IMG/VR virus record: IMGVR_UViG_3300037849_000043
Span: 1-36,519 of that record
Source: a virus
Reading direction: 5' to 3' (one strand)
Length of the DNA: 36,519 nt
Under the pieces are notes generated by a model that was not told where the DNA came from, did no database searches, and saw only the letters and a list, made by a program, of their open reading frames with translations. Of this stretch, positions 24,037 to 36,519 are shown piece after piece. The position numbers and the translations under genes were made by a program. Position 1 is the stretch's first letter. Each line of letters begins with the position of its first letter.

Positions 24037-25551
24037 ATGGCTCGATTCGGCCTGATCGGAGGTTCGTACCAGAGTCAGTCTGTAATCGCAGACTGCCAGC
24101 GCACGATGAACTGGTATACGGAGACCATTGAAAGTCAAATGGGAGCGTCCGCGATGGCGCTCTATCCTACGCCGGGATTGACCCTTTTCGGCACGCTTCC
24201 GGGCGGCGTACAGCGGGGAATGCTTGAGATCAACGGCAGGCTTTTCGCTGTGGGTGGCCCGAATTTCTATGAGCTCAACTCATTCGGCATCCCCACCAGC
24301 TATGGATCAGTGGGAAACGATCTTCAAATGGTCACAATGGCCTCAAACGGGACGCTGGGAAACCAGATCGTCATTTGCTCGGCGGGGTCACTGTACATTT
24401 TCAATCTAAATACCAACACCTTGACGCAGATTGGCGGCCTGACCGGGATTCCGGCGATGGTGGTTTATTGCAGCAGCTACTTTGTGGCTCTCTTGCAAAA
24501 TTCCAACATCTTTCAGGTGTCCAATCTTCTGGACGGTTCCACGTGGAACCCCTTGAGTGTGCAGCAAAATGAGGTTTTCCCGGAAAACATAGCTTCGATT
24601 GTCTCGGCCTACGATTTCCTGTTTGTTCTGGGGCAGGACGGTCACTCTCAGGTCTACTACAACTCAGGCGCGAATCAGTTCACTCCGTTCAGCCCGATTT
24701 CCGGGGCATACATGGAAGAGGGATGCGGCGCTCCGAAGTCCCCGGTCGTCATGGATAACACGGTCATGTGGATTGGCGGAAGGCAGGGCAAGGGCGATAT
24801 CGCGTGGAGAGCGAACGGGTACACCCCTCTTAGAATCTCGACTTTCGCGGAAGAAACGGCGTGGGCGTCCTATCCGGCGAAAGGATCGGACGCCGTTGGG
24901 TACACCTACCGCGATCAGGGACATACGTTTTGGGTGCTCAGATACCCTTCAGCCAACAACGGCTTCGGAGCGACGTGGGTTTATGATGCCGCAGGCCAGC
25001 AATGGCACGAACGGGGCTTCTGGTCACAGCAAGGCCCTACTGGCTACAGTGCTCATCTCTCTACGTGCGCCGTCTTTGCCTTCGGGCAGCAGTTGGTCGG
25101 CGATTGGAACTCTGGCAACATCTATTCGCAGTCGATTTCAACGCTTACTGACAACGGCACGACCATCAGGCGGTGGAGACGGTCGCCTCATATCGCAGCG
25201 GAGCGCGAAAGAGTCTTTCTGCAAAGACTACAAATCGATGTTGAGGTCGGATTAGGTCCTCAGCCTCCGTTGCTTGACGGCTTCGGCAATCCCCGCGATC
25301 CTCAGTTGCAGTTGAGCATTTCAAGAGACGGCAGCAAGACGTTCGGAGTTCAATACACGCTGAATTGCGGGCAGGCCGGCGCCTACAAGAAACGGGCGAT
25401 CTTGAGGCGTTTGGGGCAGGCCAGAGACTTTGCATTCGATATCGTGGCCACCGACCCTATTCCGTGGCGAATCATTGAAGGCTACGTCGAGGGAACAGGC
25501 TTTAACACTCCATCTCAACGGCTTGTTAAGCAGATAGCGCAGGCTCAATAA
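24037..25551 (+). CDS. P22 gp10-like packaged-DNA stabilisation protein
   Basis: 504 residues (P22 gp10 has 472). MARFGLIGGSYQSQSVIADC starts the family; repeated beta-type motifs (GQDGHSQVYYNSGANQFTPF, MWIGGRQGKGDIAWRANG) fit its beta-propeller, and the end (RAILRRLGQARDFAFDI) is also typical. In P22, gp10 forms the hub connecting the gp4 ring to the tail needle and tailspikes. The SD lies 14 bases upstream, unusually far. Confidence 0.75.
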   Translation: MARFGLIGGSYQSQSVIADCQRTMNWYTETIESQMGASAMALYPTPGLTLFGTLPGGVQRGMLEINGRLFAVGGPNFYELNSFGIPTSYGSVGNDLQMVTMASNGTLGNQIVICSAGSLYIFNLNTNTLTQIGGLTGIPAMVVYCSSYFVALLQNSNIFQVSNLLDGSTWNPLSVQQNEVFPENIASIVSAYDFLFVLGQDGHSQVYYNSGANQFTPFSPISGAYMEEGCGAPKSPVVMDNTVMWIGGRQGKGDIAWRANGYTPLRISTFAEETAWASYPAKGSDAVGYTYRDQGHTFWVLRYPSANNGFGATWVYDAAGQQWHERGFWSQQGPTGYSAHLSTCAVFAFGQQLVGDWNSGNIYSQSISTLTDNGTTIRRWRRSPHIAAERERVFLQRLQIDVEVGLGPQPPLLDGFGNPRDPQLQLSISRDGSKTFGVQYTLNCGQAGAYKKRAILRRLGQARDFAFDIVATDPIPWRIIEGYVEGTGFNTPSQRLVKQIAQAQ

Positions 25552-25724
25552 TGGCTCAAACGATTCCAGTACCAGCCCCGATCAATGCGACGGTCCCTTT
25601 TACCAATCAGGGAACGCCGAGCGGACTAACTCAGTTCGGCGTCAAGCAACTTTCAGACACTCAAGCGGCGATTGCGGAGCTCATCGCGCAGGTTGCGGCG
25701 CTCAATGCAAAGGTAGGACTATGA
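25551..25724 (+). CDS. 57-residue protein with C-terminal coiled coil
   Basis: MAQTIPVPAPINATVPFTNQ is extended, and the remainder (QLSDTQAAIAELIAQVAALN) is a heptad-like helix that would trimerise. In the tail region such proteins may form a needle-like or fibre-attachment part (as P22 gp26 does on a larger scale). It overlaps both neighbours (TAATG and ATGA). Confidence 0.6.
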   Translation: MAQTIPVPAPINATVPFTNQGTPSGLTQFGVKQLSDTQAAIAELIAQVAALNAKVGL

Positions 25725-26920
25725 AGCGGACATTTATCGGGCTTTTATCGGGCTTTTGGCTGGCTCTCCCCTTGATGGGCCAGAATCCAGTCATCCCCTT
25801 TCGCTCCCCGCGGGCAACCTTCCAGACGGCTACAGGCCAGCCTCTATCCGGCGGCTGCATCTTCACCTATCAGGGCGGCACAACGACGCCGCAAGCCACC
25901 TACACAAGCAGCACGGGCGCAACTCCCAACTCTAACCCCGTGATTCTTGATTCGACCGGCTCTGGCGTCATGTGGTTCGGCGTGAACACCTACAAATTGG
26001 TTGCCTACAGCGCAGGGGGCACCAACTGCGCATCCGGTTCGCTCCAATGGACGGTTGACAACGTTCCTGGAGATGCTTTCCTAAATGGCACGATCTCGGG
26101 CGCGACGATCACGAATCCAGCGATCTCAGGCGGAACGGCAACGGGCCAAACTGTATCGAGTGATGTGATTACGGGGAGCACAATCAACTCTACGCAGATC
26201 GGAAATAGCATCCCATCATCGGGGAGTTTTACATTCACGGCGGGCGCGCTGAATGCGATGAGCTTTAGTGCGTCTCCCCTATTTGCATCCACGCTCTATA
26301 GCTATTTCGTGATGACGCTGACGGCCAATGTAACGTCTAGTTCGATCACTGGCGGTCAAGCGGGGCAGGCAATCACGCTGAAGATGTGCGAGAACAGTTC
26401 CGGCGGCTACACCTTTGCATGGCCTTCCGGCCTTCTCAATCCTCCAACGTTCAATACGGCTCCGAATGCCTGCACCATCGACTTTGCCTACTACGACACC
26501 ACGGTATCGGCATGGGTGACGGTTGCCACATACACAGGATTTGCGCCTCCAATTCTTCCGCATTCGATTGTGTTCGCCGACCTCTCAAATACGGTCTACG
26601 GAGCTTCCGCACTGGTTAACCTCTTCAATTCTCCGGTAGCGGGAACAATCCCGGCCGCTGGAACCGCGACATACAACGGGGTGGTGGCGACGAGCAAATG
26701 CACGTTGACGACCGCCGCGACTGCCTCGACAACCTTCACTCTCAAGGATGGAGCTACCTCAGTTGGAACCATCGCGTTTGCGGCCTCGGGGACGATTGGA
26801 GCTATTAACATTTCGGCGGCTTATCCCATCGTTTCTGGCGATCAGATCACGATTGTCGCCCCGGCGTCAGCAGACGCGACGGCAGCGGGCCTGAATTGCT
26901 CCCTGGCCTTTGGATATTGA
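25721..26920 (+). CDS. Tail fibre-like protein with N-terminal signal peptide
   Basis: The N-terminus MKRTFIGLLSGFWLALPLMG is a clear Sec signal peptide. Residues about 26-120 (ATFQTATGQPLSGGCIFTYQ..., ILDSTGSGVMWFG) recall P22 tailspike-like head-binding domains. Residues 120-399 are Thr/Ser/Gly-rich beta repeats. It contains six cysteines, e.g. GGC and NCASG. An exported phage tail protein is unexpected (see findings). Confidence 0.65.
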   Translation: MKRTFIGLLSGFWLALPLMGQNPVIPFRSPRATFQTATGQPLSGGCIFTYQGGTTTPQATYTSSTGATPNSNPVILDSTGSGVMWFGVNTYKLVAYSAGGTNCASGSLQWTVDNVPGDAFLNGTISGATITNPAISGGTATGQTVSSDVITGSTINSTQIGNSIPSSGSFTFTAGALNAMSFSASPLFASTLYSYFVMTLTANVTSSSITGGQAGQAITLKMCENSSGGYTFAWPSGLLNPPTFNTAPNACTIDFAYYDTTVSAWVTVATYTGFAPPILPHSIVFADLSNTVYGASALVNLFNSPVAGTIPAAGTATYNGVVATSKCTLTTAATASTTFTLKDGATSVGTIAFAASGTIGAINISAAYPIVSGDQITIVAPASADATAAGLNCSLAFGY

Positions 26921-26921
26921 T

Positions 26922-27293
26922 ATGAAAAAGCTGATTCTCATCTCACTTCTATTGTGCGCTTCTCAGGCGTGGGGAGCGTGTACCGTCGCCAGCATCTATG
27001 TGACCTATGGCGGGTCATATTCGCTGTCTACCTCAACGCCGACTGTCGTGATTACCGGACCCGGCAGCGGGGCAACCGCGTCTGTCAACATGGCAGCCAT
27101 AGGCTCGCCAGCCACGGGTCTGTATGTCACCAGCGCGCCGGTGTCCGCAGGCGGAAGCTATACGGGGCCGGTATCCATCATGTTCACCGGAGGCACCTAC
27201 ACGTCTCCTGCCACCGGCTATGCGATCATGAGCGGCTCGTGTGGCTCGGGGGGCGGCGGAGGGGGAAGAAAGAAATTCGCATGGCTGCTGTAG
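26922..27293 (+). CDS. 123-residue secreted-type protein with Gly-rich end
   Basis: MKKLILISLLLCASQAWGAC is a signal peptide ending in AWGA. The mature part carries two approximate repeats with GGSYS(L/T)...PTVVITGPGSGATASV and PVSIMFTGG, beta-prism-like patterns seen in tail proteins, and ends GGGGGGRKKFAWLL. It may be an adhesin or a virion-associated surface protein. The ATG at 26922 lies three bases after the preceding stop; an upstream TTG is unlikely. Confidence 0.6.
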   Translation: MKKLILISLLLCASQAWGACTVASIYVTYGGSYSLSTSTPTVVITGPGSGATASVNMAAIGSPATGLYVTSAPVSAGGSYTGPVSIMFTGGTYTSPATGYAIMSGSCGSGGGGGGRKKFAWLL

Positions 27294-27742
27294 TCCGCCC
27301 GGTCAGTTACGCTGAAATCCTCAACGCGCCCAATGCGGCTGAATTACTCAAGGAATACGCCGGAGAGTGCTCAATCCCAAAGATAGGCCAGATAAACCCG
27401 CAAGCCGAGCTTTATGCACAAATGGAGCAATCCGGCAGGTTCCAGGTATTCGGCGCGTTCGATGACGACGATTTAGCAGGCTTTGCCGCCGTTCTGGTTT
27501 ATCTGAATCCCCACTACGGCAAGATGATTGCCACCGTCGAGAGCTTGTTCCTCGCCCGCAATCGCCGCAACAGCCGAACGGGAAACAGCCTGATGAACGC
27601 CATTGAGAACTACGCAAAGGAGAAGGATTGCGAAGCGATCTTGTACAGTGCGCGGACAGGGAGCCAGTTCGAGAAGCTGCTGACTATCTTGATGCCCTAC
27701 CAACGGACAAACTCTGTCTTCCTCCGACGCCTCCAGCCGTAG
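27281..27742 (+). CDS. GNAT-fold protein (T7 gp13-like)
   Basis: 153 residues; FQVFGAFDDDDLAGFAAVLV and the following beta strand (MIATVESLFLARNRRNSRTG), then SLMNAIENYAKEKDCEAILY, follow the order of a GNAT acetyltransferase fold, including an R/N-rich turn at the acetyl-CoA loop position. T7 gp13, a phage morphogenesis protein, has the same fold. Whether it acetylates or only adopts the fold is unknown. It overlaps the previous gene by 13 bases. Confidence 0.6.
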   Translation: MAAVVRPVSYAEILNAPNAAELLKEYAGECSIPKIGQINPQAELYAQMEQSGRFQVFGAFDDDDLAGFAAVLVYLNPHYGKMIATVESLFLARNRRNSRTGNSLMNAIENYAKEKDCEAILYSARTGSQFEKLLTILMPYQRTNSVFLRRLQP

Positions 27743-27771
27743 AGAAACGCATTCGGGAAGCATCGGCGAAG

Positions 27772-28134
27772 ATGAAGCCCCACGAGCACGCCTTCTATTG
27801 CCTCATGGAGCACACTCTTCACGCCGGGATGTACGCTAGAACCTGCCGGGTAGCCCCTGGAATGGCCTTTACAAGCGTCCTGATCAAGATTCCCACCTTG
27901 CTCATCGTCCATGGCGACTGCGCGGTCCTTGCCGGCGAGAAATGGCAGGAATTGAGCGGCTACAACGTGATCGCGGCTTCGGCGCACAGGATTCAGGCTT
28001 ATGTGACATTCGGAGAGACGGAAATCACGATGATCTTTCCATCGCAAGCACAAACGGTGGGCGAAGCAGAGAAAGAATTCACCGACGAATGGGCGGATTT
28101 GCTTTCTAACAGGAGTGCAACGTGTCAGGGATAG
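27772..28134 (+). CDS. Cupin-like phage protein
   Basis: The core (GMYARTCRVAPGMAFTSVLIK, LIVHGDCAVLAGEKWQELSGYN, IQAYVTFGETEITMIFP, then TVGEAEKEF) matches a phage family with a cupin-type beta barrel encoded in the tail region. The ATG at 27772 is used; a TTG at 27628 with a GGAG SD would add 48 residues but overlap the GNAT gene by 115 bases. Function unknown. Confidence 0.65.
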   Translation: MKPHEHAFYCLMEHTLHAGMYARTCRVAPGMAFTSVLIKIPTLLIVHGDCAVLAGEKWQELSGYNVIAASAHRIQAYVTFGETEITMIFPSQAQTVGEAEKEFTDEWADLLSNRSATCQG

Positions 28135-29159
28135 CGACTGGAACGGCATTACTCATCGGCGGAGGTTTGGCGGCGGCTGGCGGCGTGGCCAGTGCCGCGA
28201 TTGGCTCGAATGCTGCCACGAATGCGGCCAATACCCAGGCCACGGCTGCGGAGCAGAACGAACAGACCCAAGGAGCGTTAGGGCAGGAGTCTTTAACCGC
28301 CGAAGAACAGCAGAACCAGCAGAATCAAGCCAATCTTCAGCCGTACTTGCAGGCAGGCGACAACTCCGAAGCCTCGCTGCAATATCTCCTTGGTTTGGGC
28401 GGTCAGAATCCGCAGTCGGGTGGTACTTCCACGGCTCCCGGACAGACGCTCTCGATTCCAGGCGTCAATGGTTCAGTCAATATCCCCGGCGTTACGACCA
28501 CTACTGGCACGGCAGCAACCAATCTGGGCGGTTACGGCTCACTGATGCAAGGCTATCAGGGCGGCCAGTTTCAAGCTCCCACGGCGGCACAGGCTCAAGC
28601 CACGCCGGGGTATCAGTTCGGCCTTCAGCAGGGCGAAGGGGCCTTGCAGGCGGGCGCGGCGGCGAATGGTTCTCTTCTGACCGGAGGCACACAGAATGCG
28701 CTCGATCAATACGCGCAGAACTATGCCGACACCAATTACAACAACGTCTACAACCAAGCCCTCCAGACTTACGGGACGAATTACAACGTGTGGGCGAATC
28801 AACAGGCCAGCGAGTACAACAAACTGGCTTCGTTGGCTGGCATGGGTCAGACGACCGCGCAGACCTTGAATCAGCAGGGTCTGCAATCGACGGGCCAGAT
28901 TGCCAACACGCTGAACAGCACAGGGCAGCAGATCGGCCAGCAGAACTCGAATGCTGCGGCTGCTACTGCATCGGGTTACATCGGCAGCGCCAATGCAATT
29001 AACGGCGGCATCGGAAGCGCAACCGGGAGTTTGAGTCAAATGGGAATGCTCTATGCGCTGATGAATCCGCAGCAGAACCAGAACTCCACTACTGCCGGTG
29101 GCGTCAACTGGGGATACACCAACAACGATCCAAACTACTATGAAGGGTCCACGGGGTAA
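28122..29159 (+). CDS. Ejection/DNA-transfer protein (Gln-, Ala-rich)
   Basis: 345 residues, no cysteines, with a Gly/Ala-rich hydrophobic N-terminus (TALLIGGGLAAAGGVASAAI) and Gln-rich body; blocks such as ATPGYQFGLQQGEGALQAGA and YNKLASLAGMGQTTAQT match the DNA-transfer protein type found in podoviruses (functionally like P22 gp7). It would be packaged in the head and injected into the host. GTG start. Confidence 0.65.
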   Translation: MSGIATGTALLIGGGLAAAGGVASAAIGSNAATNAANTQATAAEQNEQTQGALGQESLTAEEQQNQQNQANLQPYLQAGDNSEASLQYLLGLGGQNPQSGGTSTAPGQTLSIPGVNGSVNIPGVTTTTGTAATNLGGYGSLMQGYQGGQFQAPTAAQAQATPGYQFGLQQGEGALQAGAAANGSLLTGGTQNALDQYAQNYADTNYNNVYNQALQTYGTNYNVWANQQASEYNKLASLAGMGQTTAQTLNQQGLQSTGQIANTLNSTGQQIGQQNSNAAAATASGYIGSANAINGGIGSATGSLSQMGMLYALMNPQQNQNSTTAGGVNWGYTNNDPNYYEGSTG

Positions 29160-29161
29160 TC

Positions 29162-30691
29162 ATGGCTAGTATCCCTCTTCCGGCTCTCGATATTCGGCCT
29201 CCTCAGCAGCAGGATACGAACCTGCTCGGGCAGTATGCCCAGCTTCAGGCGCTCAAAAACCAGCAGGTCATGCAACCGCTTCAGCAACAGGCGGCACAAC
29301 AGCAAGTGCAAGAGGGCGCGGCTGACCTTCAGATCAAGCAACAGCAACTGAAGGATCAGCAGGCCATGAGTGCCACGATGCAACAGTGGGGCAAGAATAG
29401 CCAGCCGCAGAGCAATTCGGGGCAGAATGCGTCATCGCCGACCCCCAGCTACGATGATCTTGTACCGTTGGCCATCAAGAATGGCGCATCGTTTCAGGCT
29501 GTGCAGGGACTTCAGCAGCACGTACTCCAGATGAAGCAGCAAGCCTCCACCATTGCAATGAACGATGCTCGCGCAGGAGCTTCAAATGCCGATGCCCTCA
29601 AGAGCAAGAACGGCCTAATCATCAATTCGATCACGGGCATATTGAGTTCGCCGGATAACCAACTGCCTAATATGATTATGGAGTCAGCGCAGCATCTTTC
29701 GCAGGCAGGCTTATTCGACCCTCAGCATGTTCAGCAAGCCTCCCAACTTGCTCAACTAGCGCAGCAGAATCCCGCGCAGGCCCGCCAGCAGCTTGAAGTC
29801 ATGGCGAAGAGTATGGGCGGCTACAATCAAATGCTCGAAGAGGCGCAAAAGCAGGTTACGCTCAAGAACGAGCAAGGGAAAACCGATCCTAATAGCCCGC
29901 TGTATTCGCCTTCGGCTCAGTCTGTAGCAATGGGCACAGCTCCCGGTTCCGCCCAGATTCAGCAGGGGGAAGCGCAGCAGGCAGCAGGCAAGGCCGGAGC
30001 CGAAGAAAAGGCGAGAATGCCCGGCGAAATGGCTCTAGCGGCGCAGCGCCAAGCTCTCTCTCAGGGCGACCCGAACGCAGCCGGTAAGCTTCTCGTGAAT
30101 GGCGATGCAACGCTTTCGGAGTTGAAGGCGCGCGGCTCGACGCCCGAGTTCATTGCGAAGACTCTTCAGGCAGCACATCAATTGAGCGGCGGTCAATACA
30201 ACGCGCAGCAGGCCGATGCCCAGTTCCAGGTTGCCAAATCTCCGGCGAATGTAGCATTCTTTGGGTCAGCCAAATCGCTCACAGATAAAGGCGGCACGCT
30301 CGACCAGCTCGCGCAAACAGCCAAGACCATCCCCGACAATCAGATTCCGGTGTTCAACAGCGTCGCCGACTGGGAAAAGGCCGCTACGGGGAGCGGACCT
30401 ATCGCCAAATACGCATCCCAGGCGCTTGGGGTTGCAGACGATTACTCCAAGGTTATGGGTGGAGGCCAAGGAAGCGATACTTCGAGATTGCAGGCTCTCA
30501 ATCTTATCGGCGCGAAACTGAGTCCAGCGCAAAGAGCCGGAGCAATCGAGGGTATCCGTGGCGCTGTCGGCTCGCAAGTGCAATCGCGGGTTGGCAGCAA
30601 TCCAGTATTGCAGCGTATGTATGGAGCGCAGCAACCTAACCAATCGGGCGGCACTGATCCCTTCGCTCAATTCGGCGGGAAGGCTCACTAA
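29162..30691 (+). CDS. Gln-rich ejection-type internal virion protein
   Basis: 509 residues, no cysteines, rich in Gln/Ala (QQQAAQQQVQEGAADLQIKQ), with helical segments ASQLAQLAQQNPAQARQQLE. Such composition is typical for head-ejected proteins that form a channel (P22 gp16/gp20-like). The C-terminal end (SRVGSNPVLQRMYGAQQPN) is less repetitive. Position after the DNA-transfer gene supports the role; it shares its last base with the next start (TAATG). Confidence 0.6.
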   Translation: MASIPLPALDIRPPQQQDTNLLGQYAQLQALKNQQVMQPLQQQAAQQQVQEGAADLQIKQQQLKDQQAMSATMQQWGKNSQPQSNSGQNASSPTPSYDDLVPLAIKNGASFQAVQGLQQHVLQMKQQASTIAMNDARAGASNADALKSKNGLIINSITGILSSPDNQLPNMIMESAQHLSQAGLFDPQHVQQASQLAQLAQQNPAQARQQLEVMAKSMGGYNQMLEEAQKQVTLKNEQGKTDPNSPLYSPSAQSVAMGTAPGSAQIQQGEAQQAAGKAGAEEKARMPGEMALAAQRQALSQGDPNAAGKLLVNGDATLSELKARGSTPEFIAKTLQAAHQLSGGQYNAQQADAQFQVAKSPANVAFFGSAKSLTDKGGTLDQLAQTAKTIPDNQIPVFNSVADWEKAATGSGPIAKYASQALGVADDYSKVMGGGQGSDTSRLQALNLIGAKLSPAQRAGAIEGIRGAVGSQVQSRVGSNPVLQRMYGAQQPNQSGGTDPFAQFGGKAH

Positions 30692-32142
30692 TGGGAACCA
30701 CGATCACGATGCTATCGCCGGACGGTGTACCGGGTGAAGTTCCCATCGCCAATCACGATGCTGCGATGCAGGCTGGATTCAAAACCGCCGTCACGATGCA
30801 ATCTCCCGATGGAAAGACTGGCTACATCCCGGCGGATCAGGTGTCCGCAGCAGCCGGTAAGGGATTCAAGATGGCTCAAATTCCTTCACCGGAAGACGGC
30901 AAGGCGAGCTATTGGGATGCCCTTACGAATCCAGTTGGATCAGGTGGGCGCGACCAAGGGCTGCTTGGGGGAATCACTCAGATTGGCGGGCAGGCGATCA
31001 AGGCTCTTGTGCAGCCAGTCGCGCATCCCCTCGACACCATCGAAGGGCTATACAACACAGTCCGACACCCAGTGCAGACCGCGCAGGGAATCGTCCAGAA
31101 TGTTAAGAATGACTATCAGCAGGGCGGCGTTCCATTGGCAGCGGAGAACGTCGCTGGACAGGTGCTGGGCGCTGTAGAGAGCGGGAGAATCGCTGCTCCT
31201 GTCGCCAGCGCAGCCATGAAAGCCCTACCGTCTGCCGTTGGGCGGTCCGTCCTTCTCGGCAGGACCCCAGAAGGCGCTTATGAGAGCGCGATGAAGCCGT
31301 CAACTACTATCGGTCCAGCCGACCGCGCTGCGATGGTACAGACAGGACTCCAGAACTCTATTCCAGTGTCTCCTGCGGGCGTCGAGATACTAGGCGACCT
31401 GATTGACGACTTGAATCAGAAAATCAAGGGCACGATTGCAGCCGATCCGACGAGGCCGATTGACCCAAACGCGGTTGCGACGAGAGCGGATATCGCTAAG
31501 GCAAAATTCGCCCAACAGGTGAACGCGCAGCCGGATTTGAACGCAATCGATGGATCACGGCAGCAGTTCCTAAAGGAGCAAGGAGCGCCCACCGACGTGC
31601 AGGGGAATATAACCGGCCCCGCGCCTTCAATGAACGCAGCGGACGCCCAGGCAATGAAGCAGGGAACCTATCGCGTGCTCGCTGGAAAATATGGAGAGCA
31701 AGGCAGCGCATCGGTCGAGGCGCAAAAGGCGCTGGCGCGTGGGCTGAAAGAGGAAATTGCCACTCAGTTTCCAGAAGTAGGAGGCCTCAACGCCGCAGAA
31801 TCGAAGTTGCTCGATCTTCAGCCAGTTCTTGAGCGGGCCGTGAATCGCATTTCCAACCATCAACTGATAGGAATCGGAACTCCTGTAGCCGGAGCTGGCG
31901 CAGCGGCGGTAACTGGCAGCACCACGATTGGGAAAGTTGCTATGGTGGCGAAAGCTGTGCTGGATAATCCCGCTGTGAAATCGCGGCTTGCGATAGCGGT
32001 CAGTAAGGGCGGCGGGATTCCATTTTCCCAGGCTCTCGCTCGCGTTCAATCCTACGCAACATCGCTTGGATCAGCATCTTCCGTTTCTCAGGAGAACTCC
32101 CCCTCCGACAATCCCAATCAACCATCGCCCGCGCAGCAATGA
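30691..32142 (+). CDS. Third ejection-type virion protein
   Basis: 483 residues. The N-terminus has two repeats (MLSPDGVPGEVPIANHDAAM; MQSPDGKTGYIPADQVSAAA), a GF/K-containing pattern seen in phage internal proteins; then a long helical Ala-rich body with a hydrophobic Gly-rich stretch (IGIGTPVAGAGAAAVTG) near residue 400 that could insert in a membrane. No cysteine. Probably a component of the injection apparatus. Confidence 0.6.
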   Translation: MGTTITMLSPDGVPGEVPIANHDAAMQAGFKTAVTMQSPDGKTGYIPADQVSAAAGKGFKMAQIPSPEDGKASYWDALTNPVGSGGRDQGLLGGITQIGGQAIKALVQPVAHPLDTIEGLYNTVRHPVQTAQGIVQNVKNDYQQGGVPLAAENVAGQVLGAVESGRIAAPVASAAMKALPSAVGRSVLLGRTPEGAYESAMKPSTTIGPADRAAMVQTGLQNSIPVSPAGVEILGDLIDDLNQKIKGTIAADPTRPIDPNAVATRADIAKAKFAQQVNAQPDLNAIDGSRQQFLKEQGAPTDVQGNITGPAPSMNAADAQAMKQGTYRVLAGKYGEQGSASVEAQKALARGLKEEIATQFPEVGGLNAAESKLLDLQPVLERAVNRISNHQLIGIGTPVAGAGAAAVTGSTTIGKVAMVAKAVLDNPAVKSRLAIAVSKGGGIPFSQALARVQSYATSLGSASSVSQENSPSDNPNQPSPAQQ

Positions 32143-32171
32143 CGGCGATATAACTGAGGGCATAACCGACC

Positions 32172-35100
32172 ATGATCGTCTCAAACATGAAGATATTTTA
32201 CGCTAATCTATTCGCGCTCGTGATATTGAGCGCGCTGTTCCCGCTCGCGGTTCATGCTCAACAGAACAGGTTTCCTCCGATCAACTGGTACGGAGGCGAT
32301 CCTACGGGCGTCCCGTGTACTCAGGCCACTGCTCCGCTGTTGCAGAGCCAATCGACAGGATTAGTCTACGCCTGCAACCCGAATACCTCTGTCTATCAGC
32401 AAGTAGCAGCGGGAGGCGGTGGTTCCTCTTATCCTGGAGTGACATCGGCTGGCACAGGGGGCATCGCGGGTAACCCAGGCTCAGGGCAAACATGGGGAAT
32501 CGCTGGGAATGGCGACTACACTATTGTCGGTGCGCCGTCCGGTAGCTATCTCAAGGCTGACGGAACGGGATATGGAACACCGAGCGGCGGTAGCAGCAGC
32601 CTCTGCTCGACCTGTATCAACATCGCCGCAGCGCCCTACAACGCGGTAGCTGACGGAGTGACAGACAACACGACAGCGATCCAGAACGCGATCACGGCGG
32701 CCTGTGCGGCTAACACCGGAATCTACGTACCCGGGGGAGCTCACGGTTACAAATTCACCCACTCGCTGAATGCCACCAATACTAACGGCTGTAATGCCTC
32801 GTTTTCCATTGAGGGTGACCCGGGTTCTGGATTCCTCTGGAGCCAGTTGATCGCGGCAATGGCGGAAAATTATCCCCCTATAGATTTTGGCGGATGCGAT
32901 GGGTGCGTGATCCACAACATTCAAATCATCGAGCCCGCCGGATCATTGGCGACAACTCAGCCTGTAGTGCTGTGGGATTCGGGGACACGCGGAGCAGCGG
33001 GGGGATACGCCAACAGGTGCGAAAATACCACGATCACTATTGATCCATCTCTCACGAGTGCCTTTGGGCTCATTGGACAAGCGACGGATCAGAGCATCTT
33101 TTCTAACTGTCATGTGATCGGCGGGAATACGGCGGTGATCTACGGCGAAGGCGTGGGACGAGGAACCTCTGTAACATCGAAGTTCTACTCTTACCCTCCG
33201 GCGTCGGCAGCGGGAACGACCGAGGTTGATTTCGACAACATCGCCTTCACCAGCACGGGAGGCGGGCCGGGCCTTCAGTTAACTGGATCGCAGGCATACA
33301 CCTTCAGTGGGGAAAATTATATTAACACGGGCTCCACGGTATCCAACAGTGGCGGCGAATTGGAACTGACAGATACAGGGGGGCTTAACAATCAACTCAA
33401 CGGCTCGATCCGTACCGAAAATCAGGGCGGCGTGGCCAATGTCTGCGGGATCGATTTAGACGGCATTTATTCGTTTGTTTCCAGCGGGCATTTCTCTGGC
33501 ACCTTAGATGGGTCTCCCGTGATTTGCGGAGTAAGTGGGATCAATGTAGCCGGAGTAGTTTGGAACTTTGAAGCCAACGGCTCTACGGATTTCAATTTTC
33601 CCGGCCAATTTGGGGCAAATTCTCAGGTGACCATTCAAAACTCCGTTATCAGCGCAGCGTTCGGAACTCTTGGCAGCTTGAACTTCGGATCGACGCTGGC
33701 GGTCGATGGAGGTTTTGGATACAACACCAAAGCTATTATCCTAGCTGGAATCACGAATCCCCCTGCGTCTGGAAGCACAATCTGCGGCACTGACGGATGC
33801 ATGTCCACCGGGACAGTTTCGTCCAATTTCACAACTCCAGTAACGGTGAATGCCGGGAGCGGAAACGACACTCAGTTCCAAGCCATAGCCGGGACTTCAA
33901 CGGCGTCCTATGGTTCGGCGGTCTCGGGGGCGGCTGCGGTCACAGTGCCTACAGTTGGCTCTCAGTCTTTTCAGGTCGGCACCGCTTCCACTTCATTCTT
34001 TGAGTTGTTTCCGAATTTTGCGCTTTTTTTAGTTCCCTCAGTAGGTACTTTCGAGGGAAGTTTCAGTACTCTGGACAACACCGCAACAGGATCAGCGGTA
34101 CATCTCGTGGACTACGACGGGGGGGAGGGCGCTGGAACTGGAGCAACCGTCTCGTCGAGATTTATATTCAGCGGCGGCGATCTCAACTATCACATCAGCG
34201 GACCGCAGGCATATCTCGCTTGTCCTGAATCATTAAGCTCCGGCACTAGCAATTACTGCATCTACGACACAAGCGGCAATCCCAGTCTCATCGGCGGTCA
34301 GGTGACCATCGGTTCCAGCGGCGGATTGAATCTTCTCTCCCAAGCAGGCTCCACGGGATGCGCTCAGATCGCCATCACGACAGGGGCAGTCACGAACACC
34401 GGAACGCCGTGCGGTTCGGGCGGTTCCGGCACCGTCACCACCACCGGCTCCCCCGCATCTGGCAATATGACGAAATTCTCAGGCTCTACGTCGATCACAA
34501 ACGCGGCGGCGGCTGATGTCGTTAACCTATTCTCGACGTGCTCCGGTACTCAATACCTTGGCGCGGATGGGGCGTGTCACAACGCATCAGGCGCGGGCAC
34601 CGTGACGAGCGTAACCTTTACCGGCGATGGCGTGGTTGATTCCTCAACACCTAGTACGGCGGTAACAAGCAGTGGCACCGTCACGGCAACCGTCCTAACT
34701 CAAGCGGCGCACACCATTCTAGGCAACCACACCGGCTCTACGGCAGCGCCCACGTTCGCCACTCTCACAGCCGCAGATATCCCGGCGGGCTGTCAAGCTA
34801 TCACGTCTTCTTCAGGCGCGGCGACGGTCAACTGGGCAAGCGGGCCTTGTGCTGTGGTCACCGCTAACACAGGAGATACGGCAGTTGCCGTCACATTCAC
34901 CAACCCGGTTGCGGGATATCCGGGAGGCTACTTCCTCGGGCTTGTCAACAATGCAACTCCAAATACATGGTCTTTCAGTCCGACGCCTAACCAGTTAAAA
35001 ACACCTATTTACGCATCTGAGGCGGCCTACAATTACTACACCTACACAGGCTCGGCCTATAACGGAACTGGCTCCAACGCGACGCCGACGCTGATCTACG

Positions 35101-36458
35101 GCACTGAGCGTTCCACTCCTCCGACCTCAGTAGCGACCGCATTCGTGTGCCACTGGAACTCGACCACGCATCAAATGACTTGCAGCGACAACGGAACCAA
35201 CACCGGCAACATGGTGACGCCGCTCTCAAGCCAAGCCGCCCACGAATGGGTGCGTTACATCGACAACACAGGCTTGCAGAATTCGACGCAGCCTGCCTGC
35301 GGAGACATCTCTAACGCAGGTACGGCCTGCCAAGCGGCCACTGGCACAAGCGGCGCTACTGTGCCTCTGCTCAACGCCGCGAACACCTTTAGCGCATTGG
35401 ATGGATTCTCTGCGGGAATCAATCTCTCAGGCTCGACATCGCCTTTGCAGTTAGCGGGAAGTGCAGGCACTAGCGGTCAATGTCCGATCTCTGGAGGCGC
35501 GGGGGTCACGCCGGCATGGGGATCATGCGGTAGCGGTGGAAGCGGCGGCGCGGCTCTCAACCCGTCCTGCACATTCGCATCGCTGGCAACCGGATGCACG
35601 ATCAATGTGGCCAGCCTGTCCGTAGCAACTGCCAATGTGACCTCCTTGATTGTCCAGTGCGCCACTCTAACCGCTGGCACGTACACGAACCTCGTTGGAA
35701 CCTATACGGTAACTTCGTCTGGCGGAAACCTGGCTACCGTGGTAACTTCTTTCGGATCGGCAACGGCGGCTGGATCATGCACAGCGAACGCAACCAGCGG
35801 GAACATCATTGGAGATGGCGTGCTGTATCCTGCCAGTGCCGCATCTACATTGGTTCTCAATACTCAGACTGCCAACACTGGCCTCTACGGTCCAGCTTCC
35901 GGTTCCGCAGCCGCGCCGACCTTCCGGGCTCAGGTCGCAGCCGATCTTCCGGTTGGCACGGTGATTACCTCGACGCCGGTAATGGGATCGAGCGACACGA
36001 TCACCTGCGGCACGGGGACCACTCTCCAGACGTTCGCAACCACGATCTCGCGGCCAGCCTTCACACAGACGGCTGGGGCGATCTGGGAACTCAAAATAAA
36101 GGCGATAGAAACCTCAACCGCAAGCGCGCTCACTTTCCAGTTTGGAGTTCTAGACAATGGCACGAATGTTTACCTTAGCGGCAACCAGACTAACTCCCTG
36201 AGCACCGCAAACCTTCCTGTCAGCGCCACTGTAGACGAGGAGATTTCGGGATCAAATCTTGCTTCAGCGGCGCTCACGGTAACCAACGAAGGAAGCGTAT
36301 TTTCTAACACTGGTTTGCAGGCCCTCAATCACACCGCCCAGACGACCGGATACGCCTCGAATAATGCCAGGACCATCAGTGTGACGATGCAGTGCAGCGC
36401 AGCGACCGCAGGCAATACCGTTACGCTTCTGGGCCTGACAGAAACGAAGATTTACTGA
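32172..36458 (+). CDS. Giant beta-helix tail spike with signal peptide
   Basis: 1,428 residues. The N-terminus (MIVSNMKIFYANLFALVILS, then ALFPLAVHAQQN) is a signal peptide with VHA before the cut; a second ATG at 32187 is equally possible. Residues about 153-450 are a right-handed beta-helix of the pectate-lyase-3 type (YNAVADGVTDNTTAIQNAIT, IYVPGGAHGY). The remainder consists of tail-fibre repeats, with LLNAANTFSALDGFSAG near 1066 and GSAAAPTFRAQVAADLP near 1240. It has over thirty cysteines. It probably binds and degrades host surface polysaccharide. Confidence 0.75.
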   Translation: MIVSNMKIFYANLFALVILSALFPLAVHAQQNRFPPINWYGGDPTGVPCTQATAPLLQSQSTGLVYACNPNTSVYQQVAAGGGGSSYPGVTSAGTGGIAGNPGSGQTWGIAGNGDYTIVGAPSGSYLKADGTGYGTPSGGSSSLCSTCINIAAAPYNAVADGVTDNTTAIQNAITAACAANTGIYVPGGAHGYKFTHSLNATNTNGCNASFSIEGDPGSGFLWSQLIAAMAENYPPIDFGGCDGCVIHNIQIIEPAGSLATTQPVVLWDSGTRGAAGGYANRCENTTITIDPSLTSAFGLIGQATDQSIFSNCHVIGGNTAVIYGEGVGRGTSVTSKFYSYPPASAAGTTEVDFDNIAFTSTGGGPGLQLTGSQAYTFSGENYINTGSTVSNSGGELELTDTGGLNNQLNGSIRTENQGGVANVCGIDLDGIYSFVSSGHFSGTLDGSPVICGVSGINVAGVVWNFEANGSTDFNFPGQFGANSQVTIQNSVISAAFGTLGSLNFGSTLAVDGGFGYNTKAIILAGITNPPASGSTICGTDGCMSTGTVSSNFTTPVTVNAGSGNDTQFQAIAGTSTASYGSAVSGAAAVTVPTVGSQSFQVGTASTSFFELFPNFALFLVPSVGTFEGSFSTLDNTATGSAVHLVDYDGGEGAGTGATVSSRFIFSGGDLNYHISGPQAYLACPESLSSGTSNYCIYDTSGNPSLIGGQVTIGSSGGLNLLSQAGSTGCAQIAITTGAVTNTGTPCGSGGSGTVTTTGSPASGNMTKFSGSTSITNAAAADVVNLFSTCSGTQYLGADGACHNASGAGTVTSVTFTGDGVVDSSTPSTAVTSSGTVTATVLTQAAHTILGNHTGSTAAPTFATLTAADIPAGCQAITSSSGAATVNWASGPCAVVTANTGDTAVAVTFTNPVAGYPGGYFLGLVNNATPNTWSFSPTPNQLKTPIYASEAAYNYYTYTGSAYNGTGSNATPTLIYGTERSTPPTSVATAFVCHWNSTTHQMTCSDNGTNTGNMVTPLSSQAAHEWVRYIDNTGLQNSTQPACGDISNAGTACQAATGTSGATVPLLNAANTFSALDGFSAGINLSGSTSPLQLAGSAGTSGQCPISGGAGVTPAWGSCGSGGSGGAALNPSCTFASLATGCTINVASLSVATANVTSLIVQCATLTAGTYTNLVGTYTVTSSGGNLATVVTSFGSATAAGSCTANATSGNIIGDGVLYPASAASTLVLNTQTANTGLYGPASGSAAAPTFRAQVAADLPVGTVITSTPVMGSSDTITCGTGTTLQTFATTISRPAFTQTAGAIWELKIKAIETSTASALTFQFGVLDNGTNVYLSGNQTNSLSTANLPVSATVDEEISGSNLASAALTVTNEGSVFSNTGLQALNHTAQTTGYASNNARTISVTMQCSAATAGNTVTLLGLTETKIY

Positions 36459-36519
36459 TGCGGAAACTTCTCCTTCTCGCGTTTCTCTGCGCGTCTGTTG
36501 CGGGCGCGCAGACGTGCAA
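36458..36519 (+). CDS. 5' end of a signal-peptide gene, cut by the window edge
   Basis: The 20 residues visible (MRKLLLLAFLCASVAGAQTC) are a perfect Sec signal peptide: basic n-region, Leu-rich core, AGA cleavage motif. The ATG shares a base with the tail-spike stop (TGATG), so it belongs to the late operon. The mature protein is outside the window; a further tail protein is likely. Confidence 0.6.
   Translation, partial: MRKLLLLAFLCASVAGAQTC

Follow-up and report, generated by a model that had tools for sequence, protein, structure and literature searches.

Sec-type signal peptides on predicted tailspikes of a P22-like podovirus and its relatives point to a possible export-dependent route of spike assembly

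Virions of tailed phages are taught to be assembled wholly in the cytoplasm; why, then, should tailspike genes of a podovirus begin with signals for export? The question is raised by virus record IMGVR_UViG_3300037849_000043 of IMG/VR, of which positions 1 to 36,519 were analysed (36.5 kb; hereafter the window). The window is a fragment of a P22-like podovirus genome, with a P22-like portal (PF16510, E = 1.6e-124) and coat protein (PF11651, E = 4.1e-34) and a P22 gp10-like tail hub or head-closure protein (Hc3; 24037-25551; phrog_578, E = 2e-86), which carries no signal peptide (SP). A preliminary description of the sequence had reported that four genes located 3' of the hub, starting at 25721, 26922, 32187 and 36458, begin with Sec-type SPs, and this was confirmed by the sequence, by an SP scorer and by orthologs. 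The hub, the four signal-bearing genes, the ejection genes and the small open reading frame described below all lie on the plus strand.

The predicted signals are as follows: (i) residues 1-20 (25721-25780; MKRTFIGLLSGFWLALPLMG, cut after G20 and before QN) of a 399-aa tailspike or fibre, spike 1 (25721-26920); (ii) positions 26922-26975 (MKKLILISLLLCASQAWG, cut before AC) of a small protein of 123 aa (26922-27293); (iii) 24 residues (32187-32258; MKIFYANLFALVILSALFPLAVHA, cut between VHA and QQ) of a large spike of 1423 aa (32187-36458), for which 32187 is a better start than 32172; and (iv) the start of a fourth gene, cut by the end of the window (36458-36519; MRKLLLLAFLCASVAGA, cut before QTC). 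Three of the start codons are coupled to an upstream stop, that of 26922 lying one base past it and that of 36458 within TGATG, while the start of spike 1 is fixed by the stop of a 57-aa open reading frame (ORF; 25551-25724) that overlaps it (ATGA). Signals were called by a scorer of our own, which combines a von Heijne-type prokaryotic matrix with rules for the hydrophobic core and charge; it recognized 10/10 known Escherichia coli SPs and 0/126 core structural proteins from relatives. The features of a Sec and signal peptidase I substrate (a basic n-region, a hydrophobic core and small residues at -3 and -1) were found under the strict rule in 26922, 32187 and 36458; spike 1 passes the relaxed rule only, because its -3 and -1 residues are L and G (cut site L-M-G), and its orthologs pass the strict one. 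Since 6-17% of shuffles of each window N-terminus also pass the relaxed rule, single genes are weak evidence, and the strength of the case lies in conservation among relatives.

The region directly following the signal of spike 1 (25781-26065) was recognized, by profile, AlphaFold and VIA structure comparison, as a P22-type tailspike head-binding domain. The spike 1 profile matches the head-binding domain of the cyanophage Pam1 tailspike (7eeq_A, E = 1.3e-11) and the Pan3 tail spike (1.4e-9). The domain model (AlphaFold monomer, 72 homologs) has a pLDDT of 89.3 (that of the whole mature protein is 41), and VIA aligns it with the Pan3 tail complex (9vyg_o, Z 11.5) and with P22 (1lkt_A, Z 9.6), placing model residues 1-96 on residues 6-106 of the P22 head-binding domain. 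Tailspikes of P22, Sf6, Pam1 and Pan3 start at this domain, have no SP and fold in the cytoplasm. Spike 1 shares with them the whole-domain fold, its mature N-terminal position and the gene neighborhood, with P22-like portal, coat and hub, but adds a preceding signal and a cysteine pair, so that the domain, usually located at or near residue 1 without an export signal, here stands behind a 20-residue Sec-type signal. The distance from the protein start to the domain is 0-11 aa in SP-negative homologs and, with one exception, 19-47 aa in SP-positive ones. As modeled, spike 1 after cleavage starts with a complete head-binding domain and would thus be a structural part of the virion that is preceded by an SP; by comparison of the homologs, a virion-attachment domain of the usual kind has either gained an export signal or lost one. 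The preliminary description had left open whether such proteins are placed on the virion or act as secreted depolymerases; the domain behind the signal favors attachment over a purely secreted depolymerase. In our view the signal-bearing spikes are P22-type tailspikes in a variant form, and the chance that a new assembly route lies behind them is fair.

The same feature was sought in relatives, with the Hc3 tail hub used as the anchor for finding them. Of 40 distinct head-binding homologs encoded in Hc3-related loci, 34 carry a signal, whereas most homologs outside this clade begin directly at the head-binding domain. In most ortholog pairs (very close pairs aside) the SPs share 15-56% identity, compared with 57-85% for the mature domain, and every one of them still scores as an SP; under simulated neutral drift to 40-50% identity, an SP was kept in only 10-34% of trials. 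Judged from these comparisons, selection maintains the SP character and not its letters.

In the Hc3 tail-hub tree, most loci of a 34-member clade are SP-positive, and two apparent SP-negative exceptions within it are SP-positive on inspection (L227 is positive by inspection and was missed by the scorer; L200 overlaps a contig stretch of L046). Among the three outgroup rows, L032 and L225 are SP-negative and L228 is SP-positive, having been coded by hand as SP-negative in the tree. Three clade members (L187, L189 and L203) have a head-binding protein that itself lacks a signal, either lost or never present. Where a host is named, SP-positive matches come from Acidobacteriota, except for one metagenome-assembled genome of Betaproteobacteria (L119), whose contig may be mis-binned; the clade is one of soil phages, with Acidobacteria making up the majority of the hosts that are named. 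A sample of 399 genomes of an Acidobacteriota class included genomes already found and hence does not give an unbiased rate; in it, an SP was present in 10 of the 11 genomes with a match (nine called by the scorer and L162 recognized visually), the eleventh being a broken fragment; of the matches in Pseudomonadota, 0/8 had a signal. The contig L033 (1180-10844), possibly misassembled, links a clade-type hub end and a truncated spike with another structural cassette of a different kind, which also has two signal-bearing fiber-like genes, and L122 and L123 carry tail-fiber head-binding domains in contigs binned as Bathyarchaeota, which are probably mis-binned phage sequence.

The signals are tied to paired cysteines. 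At least two cysteines were found in the head-binding domain of 44/55 SP-positive but only 2/77 SP-negative homologs (Fisher 4e-22). In spike 1 the alignment identifies a conserved pair, Cys 46 (25856-25858) and Cys 103 (26027-26029), the latter located on an insertion seen only in SP-positive homologs; C46 is accompanied by C103 in 23/23 homologs, and other SP-positive lineages have different pairs, e.g., CxxC. Even cysteine counts occur in 25 of the 30 complete SP-positive proteins, compared with 26 of the 46 SP-negative proteins with any cysteine, and among ORFs 3' of the hub in tail-hub loci the median cysteine content is 1.98% (SP-positive) versus 0.00% (SP-negative). Acidobacteriota genomes with such prophages encode DsbA (8/8) and VKOR (7/8). 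The preliminary description had called the three complete signal-bearing proteins rich in cysteine; the counts are 34 for the large spike (in 1428 aa, counted from 32172), 3 for the small protein (in 123 aa, one of them within the signal) and 6 for spike 1 (in 399 aa, 1.5%), whose content is only modest. Its statement that the neighboring ejection proteins are cysteine-free proved correct (0 cysteines in 1337 aa, three proteins). Across relatives, too, the ejection proteins are nearly devoid of cysteine (0.06, 0 and 0 per 100 aa; also L165 33723-37339 and L166 24270-29886), perhaps because they cross the periplasm during ejection. In L189 (10787-14472) and L203 (17299-21442) an SP-less head-binding protein with 0-1 cysteines lies beside SP-positive genes with 4-22, an arrangement suggestive of an adaptor made in the cytoplasm and combined with exported spikes.

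A second group of signal-bearing spikes is found in phages that are in culture. The podoviruses Tunturi 1 and 2 infect Tunturiibacter psychrotolerans X5P2 and are described in a paper that makes no mention of SPs or mass spectrometry (PMC11924767). Both carry five signal-bearing genes in one fiber and spike block, with the same layout as in the window but in another fiber family; the gene products in Tunturi 1 have 1190, 675, 919, 149 and 1184 aa with 20, 10, 21, 2 and 32 cysteines, respectively, the 919-aa protein being annotated as a tail spike or pectin lyase. Signals are absent from their portal, coat and probable hub and also from the two putative ejection proteins, which contain no cysteine either; putative ejection-protein counterparts in Tunturi 1 and 3 also lack cysteine. 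The domain behind the signal of the first of the five proteins also forms the N-terminus of tailspikes without an SP in phages of Serratia, Klebsiella, Escherichia and Erwinia. No relatives of Tunturi gp12 were found in viral contigs, and a generic, self-composed fiber sequence matched E. coli phages by tblastn only downstream of its signal portion. Because the relationship of their structural proteins to the P22-like families is either remote or beyond detection, this is probably a separate occurrence. That the host imposes the trait was rejected, since no signal-bearing fibers were seen in the regions read of Tunturi 3, which shares the host strain, or of Tunturi 4 and 5, which share the host genus.

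The following route would account for these observations. The receptor-binding spikes and fibers of the window phage and of most of its clade would be made with cleavable Sec signals and exported to the host periplasm, where disulfides would form and the signal would be removed, so that the mature protein would begin with the P22-type head-binding domain. Spikeless capsids bearing the tail hub would meanwhile assemble in the cytoplasm, and lysis would merge the two compartments, allowing mature spikes to dock on the hub via the head-binding domain. P22 heads that lack spikes can acquire them in vitro. Export is well supported by the sequence comparisons; cleavage and oxidation we infer from the same data, and docking at the time of lysis more loosely. 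The retained head-binding domain and the lack of any other spike candidate in most such genomes argue for a mature protein that ends up on the virion, and lysis would be the simplest meeting point, as heads are packaged in the cytoplasm. Since selection maintains the signals and paired cysteines accompany them, the separate export-dependent route proposed in the preliminary description stands as the best reading, with overall cysteine content a weaker argument than had been assumed. We assign the two-compartment route as a whole (Sec export, periplasmic disulfides and docking at lysis) a probability of about 0.62. The broader proposition, that virion assembly is split between the cytoplasm (heads and hubs) and the periplasm (spikes), joined at lysis, and arose separately in Tunturi-type podoviruses, seems to us slightly better than an even bet.

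Several points weigh against this route. The outgroup locus L228 (19467-20819) encodes an SP-positive head-binding spike without any cysteine, and disulfides are thus not a universal reason for export. Total cysteine content was rejected as proof, because the SP-less tailspikes of the Serratia, Klebsiella, Escherichia and Erwinia phages contain 1.0-1.9% cysteine. Phylogenetic contrasts of SP against cysteine gave only 1-2 independent pairs on supported branches and are underpowered, and the association could reflect few events, as related sequences dominate the counts. The small (26922) and large (32187) signal-bearing proteins have no recognized virion-binding domain, and spikes diluted upon lysis would need to find virions. 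Finally, no localization, N-terminal sequencing or virion proteomics of these spikes was found in the openly licensed PMC literature.

Among other explanations, the one that survives best, which we consider unlikely, is that the exported proteins act off the virion, as secreted depolymerases or as products of former spike genes that mask receptors or exclude superinfecting phages, in a role like that of Lom or T4 Spackle. The signals and cysteine pairs speak for export only, and exported phage proteins of such kind exist: T4 Spackle (gp61.3) has a cleaved 22-residue signal and acts in the periplasm (PMC7650644), but, unlike spike 1, it is a small inhibitor without a head-binding domain and not a virion spike. 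A secreted host protein with a tailspike fold is also known, WceF of Pantoea, a tailspike-like beta-helix trimer (PMC7949094), which differs in belonging to a bacterial exopolysaccharide cluster, in its Tat signal and in not being a phage part. An off-virion role leaves unexplained why a complete head-binding domain is retained at the mature N-terminus, and for most clade members no alternative virion spike, with such a domain but lacking an SP, was found. Moreover, every large fiber or spike candidate in the Tunturi 1 and 2 block is SP-positive, and yet both phages are infectious.

Dual localization, in which weak signals or internal starts leave a cytoplasmic pool that assembles normally while the exported proteins serve some secondary function, is less probable still. 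In the window spike (copy in L001) and seven other homologs an in-frame ATG does lie no more than 5 codons from where the domain begins, and its use would give a form resembling the SP-less homologs, but a conserved internal start of this kind was rejected, as it is present in only 8 of 33 SP-positive homologs and absent from the close relatives L007-L012; the cysteine pairs, furthermore, suggest that the oxidized form is the functional one. It is very improbable that the hydrophobic N-termini are uncleaved segments which, as assembly proceeds, insert into a membrane or into the tail hub. Their position immediately before the hub-binding domain would suit such a role, but a docking segment is expected to be conserved, whereas here the letters diverge in most pairs while SP features, including the small residues, are kept; SP-less homologs with the same domain do without such segments, and the cysteine pairing would be left unexplained. 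Chance resemblance or wrong start codons can practically be dismissed, the pass rate of the shuffles notwithstanding, given the recurrence of the SP in the head-binding homologs and not in the core proteins, the translationally coupled starts and the loss of SPs in the drift simulations.

Cleaved SPs on virion proteins are known from the filamentous phage coat proteins pIII and pVIII; these are inserted into the inner membrane and assembled during extrusion, with no tail and no lysis. The view of the preliminary description that no established podovirus scheme involves exported spikes was borne out in the openly licensed PMC literature searched, in which no description of exported spikes or fibers of tailed phages was found, and Spackle, Lom and WceF were retrieved instead.

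The gene order 3' of the hub is: the 57-aa ORF, spike 1, the small protein, an acetyltransferase-like gene, three ejection proteins, the 1423-aa spike and the gene at 36458. No family match was found for the small protein. The GNAT-like acetyltransferase gene (27281-27742) lies between the fiber and ejection genes, and GNAT-like genes recur at the equivalent position in relatives, Tunturi 1 and Tunturi 3. The ejection proteins (28122-32142; 345, 509 and 483 aa; phrog_598 for the first) have no signals. The large spike has an N-terminal NRFPPIN motif that also occurs in relatives; it gave no match in phrog, Pfam or PDB, and no relatives were found in phages (tblastn) or in viral contigs.

With Tunturi 1 and 2 in culture, and Tunturi 3, which infects the same host and has no signals on its fibers, as a natural control, the idea is testable now. 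If it is true, the Sec and Dsb systems of the host become part of virion assembly, and free mature spikes could mix among phages co-infecting one cell. Spike genes in soil viromes could then be mistaken for secreted enzymes or auxiliary metabolic genes, and these phages would have spikes stabilized by disulfides for life in soil.

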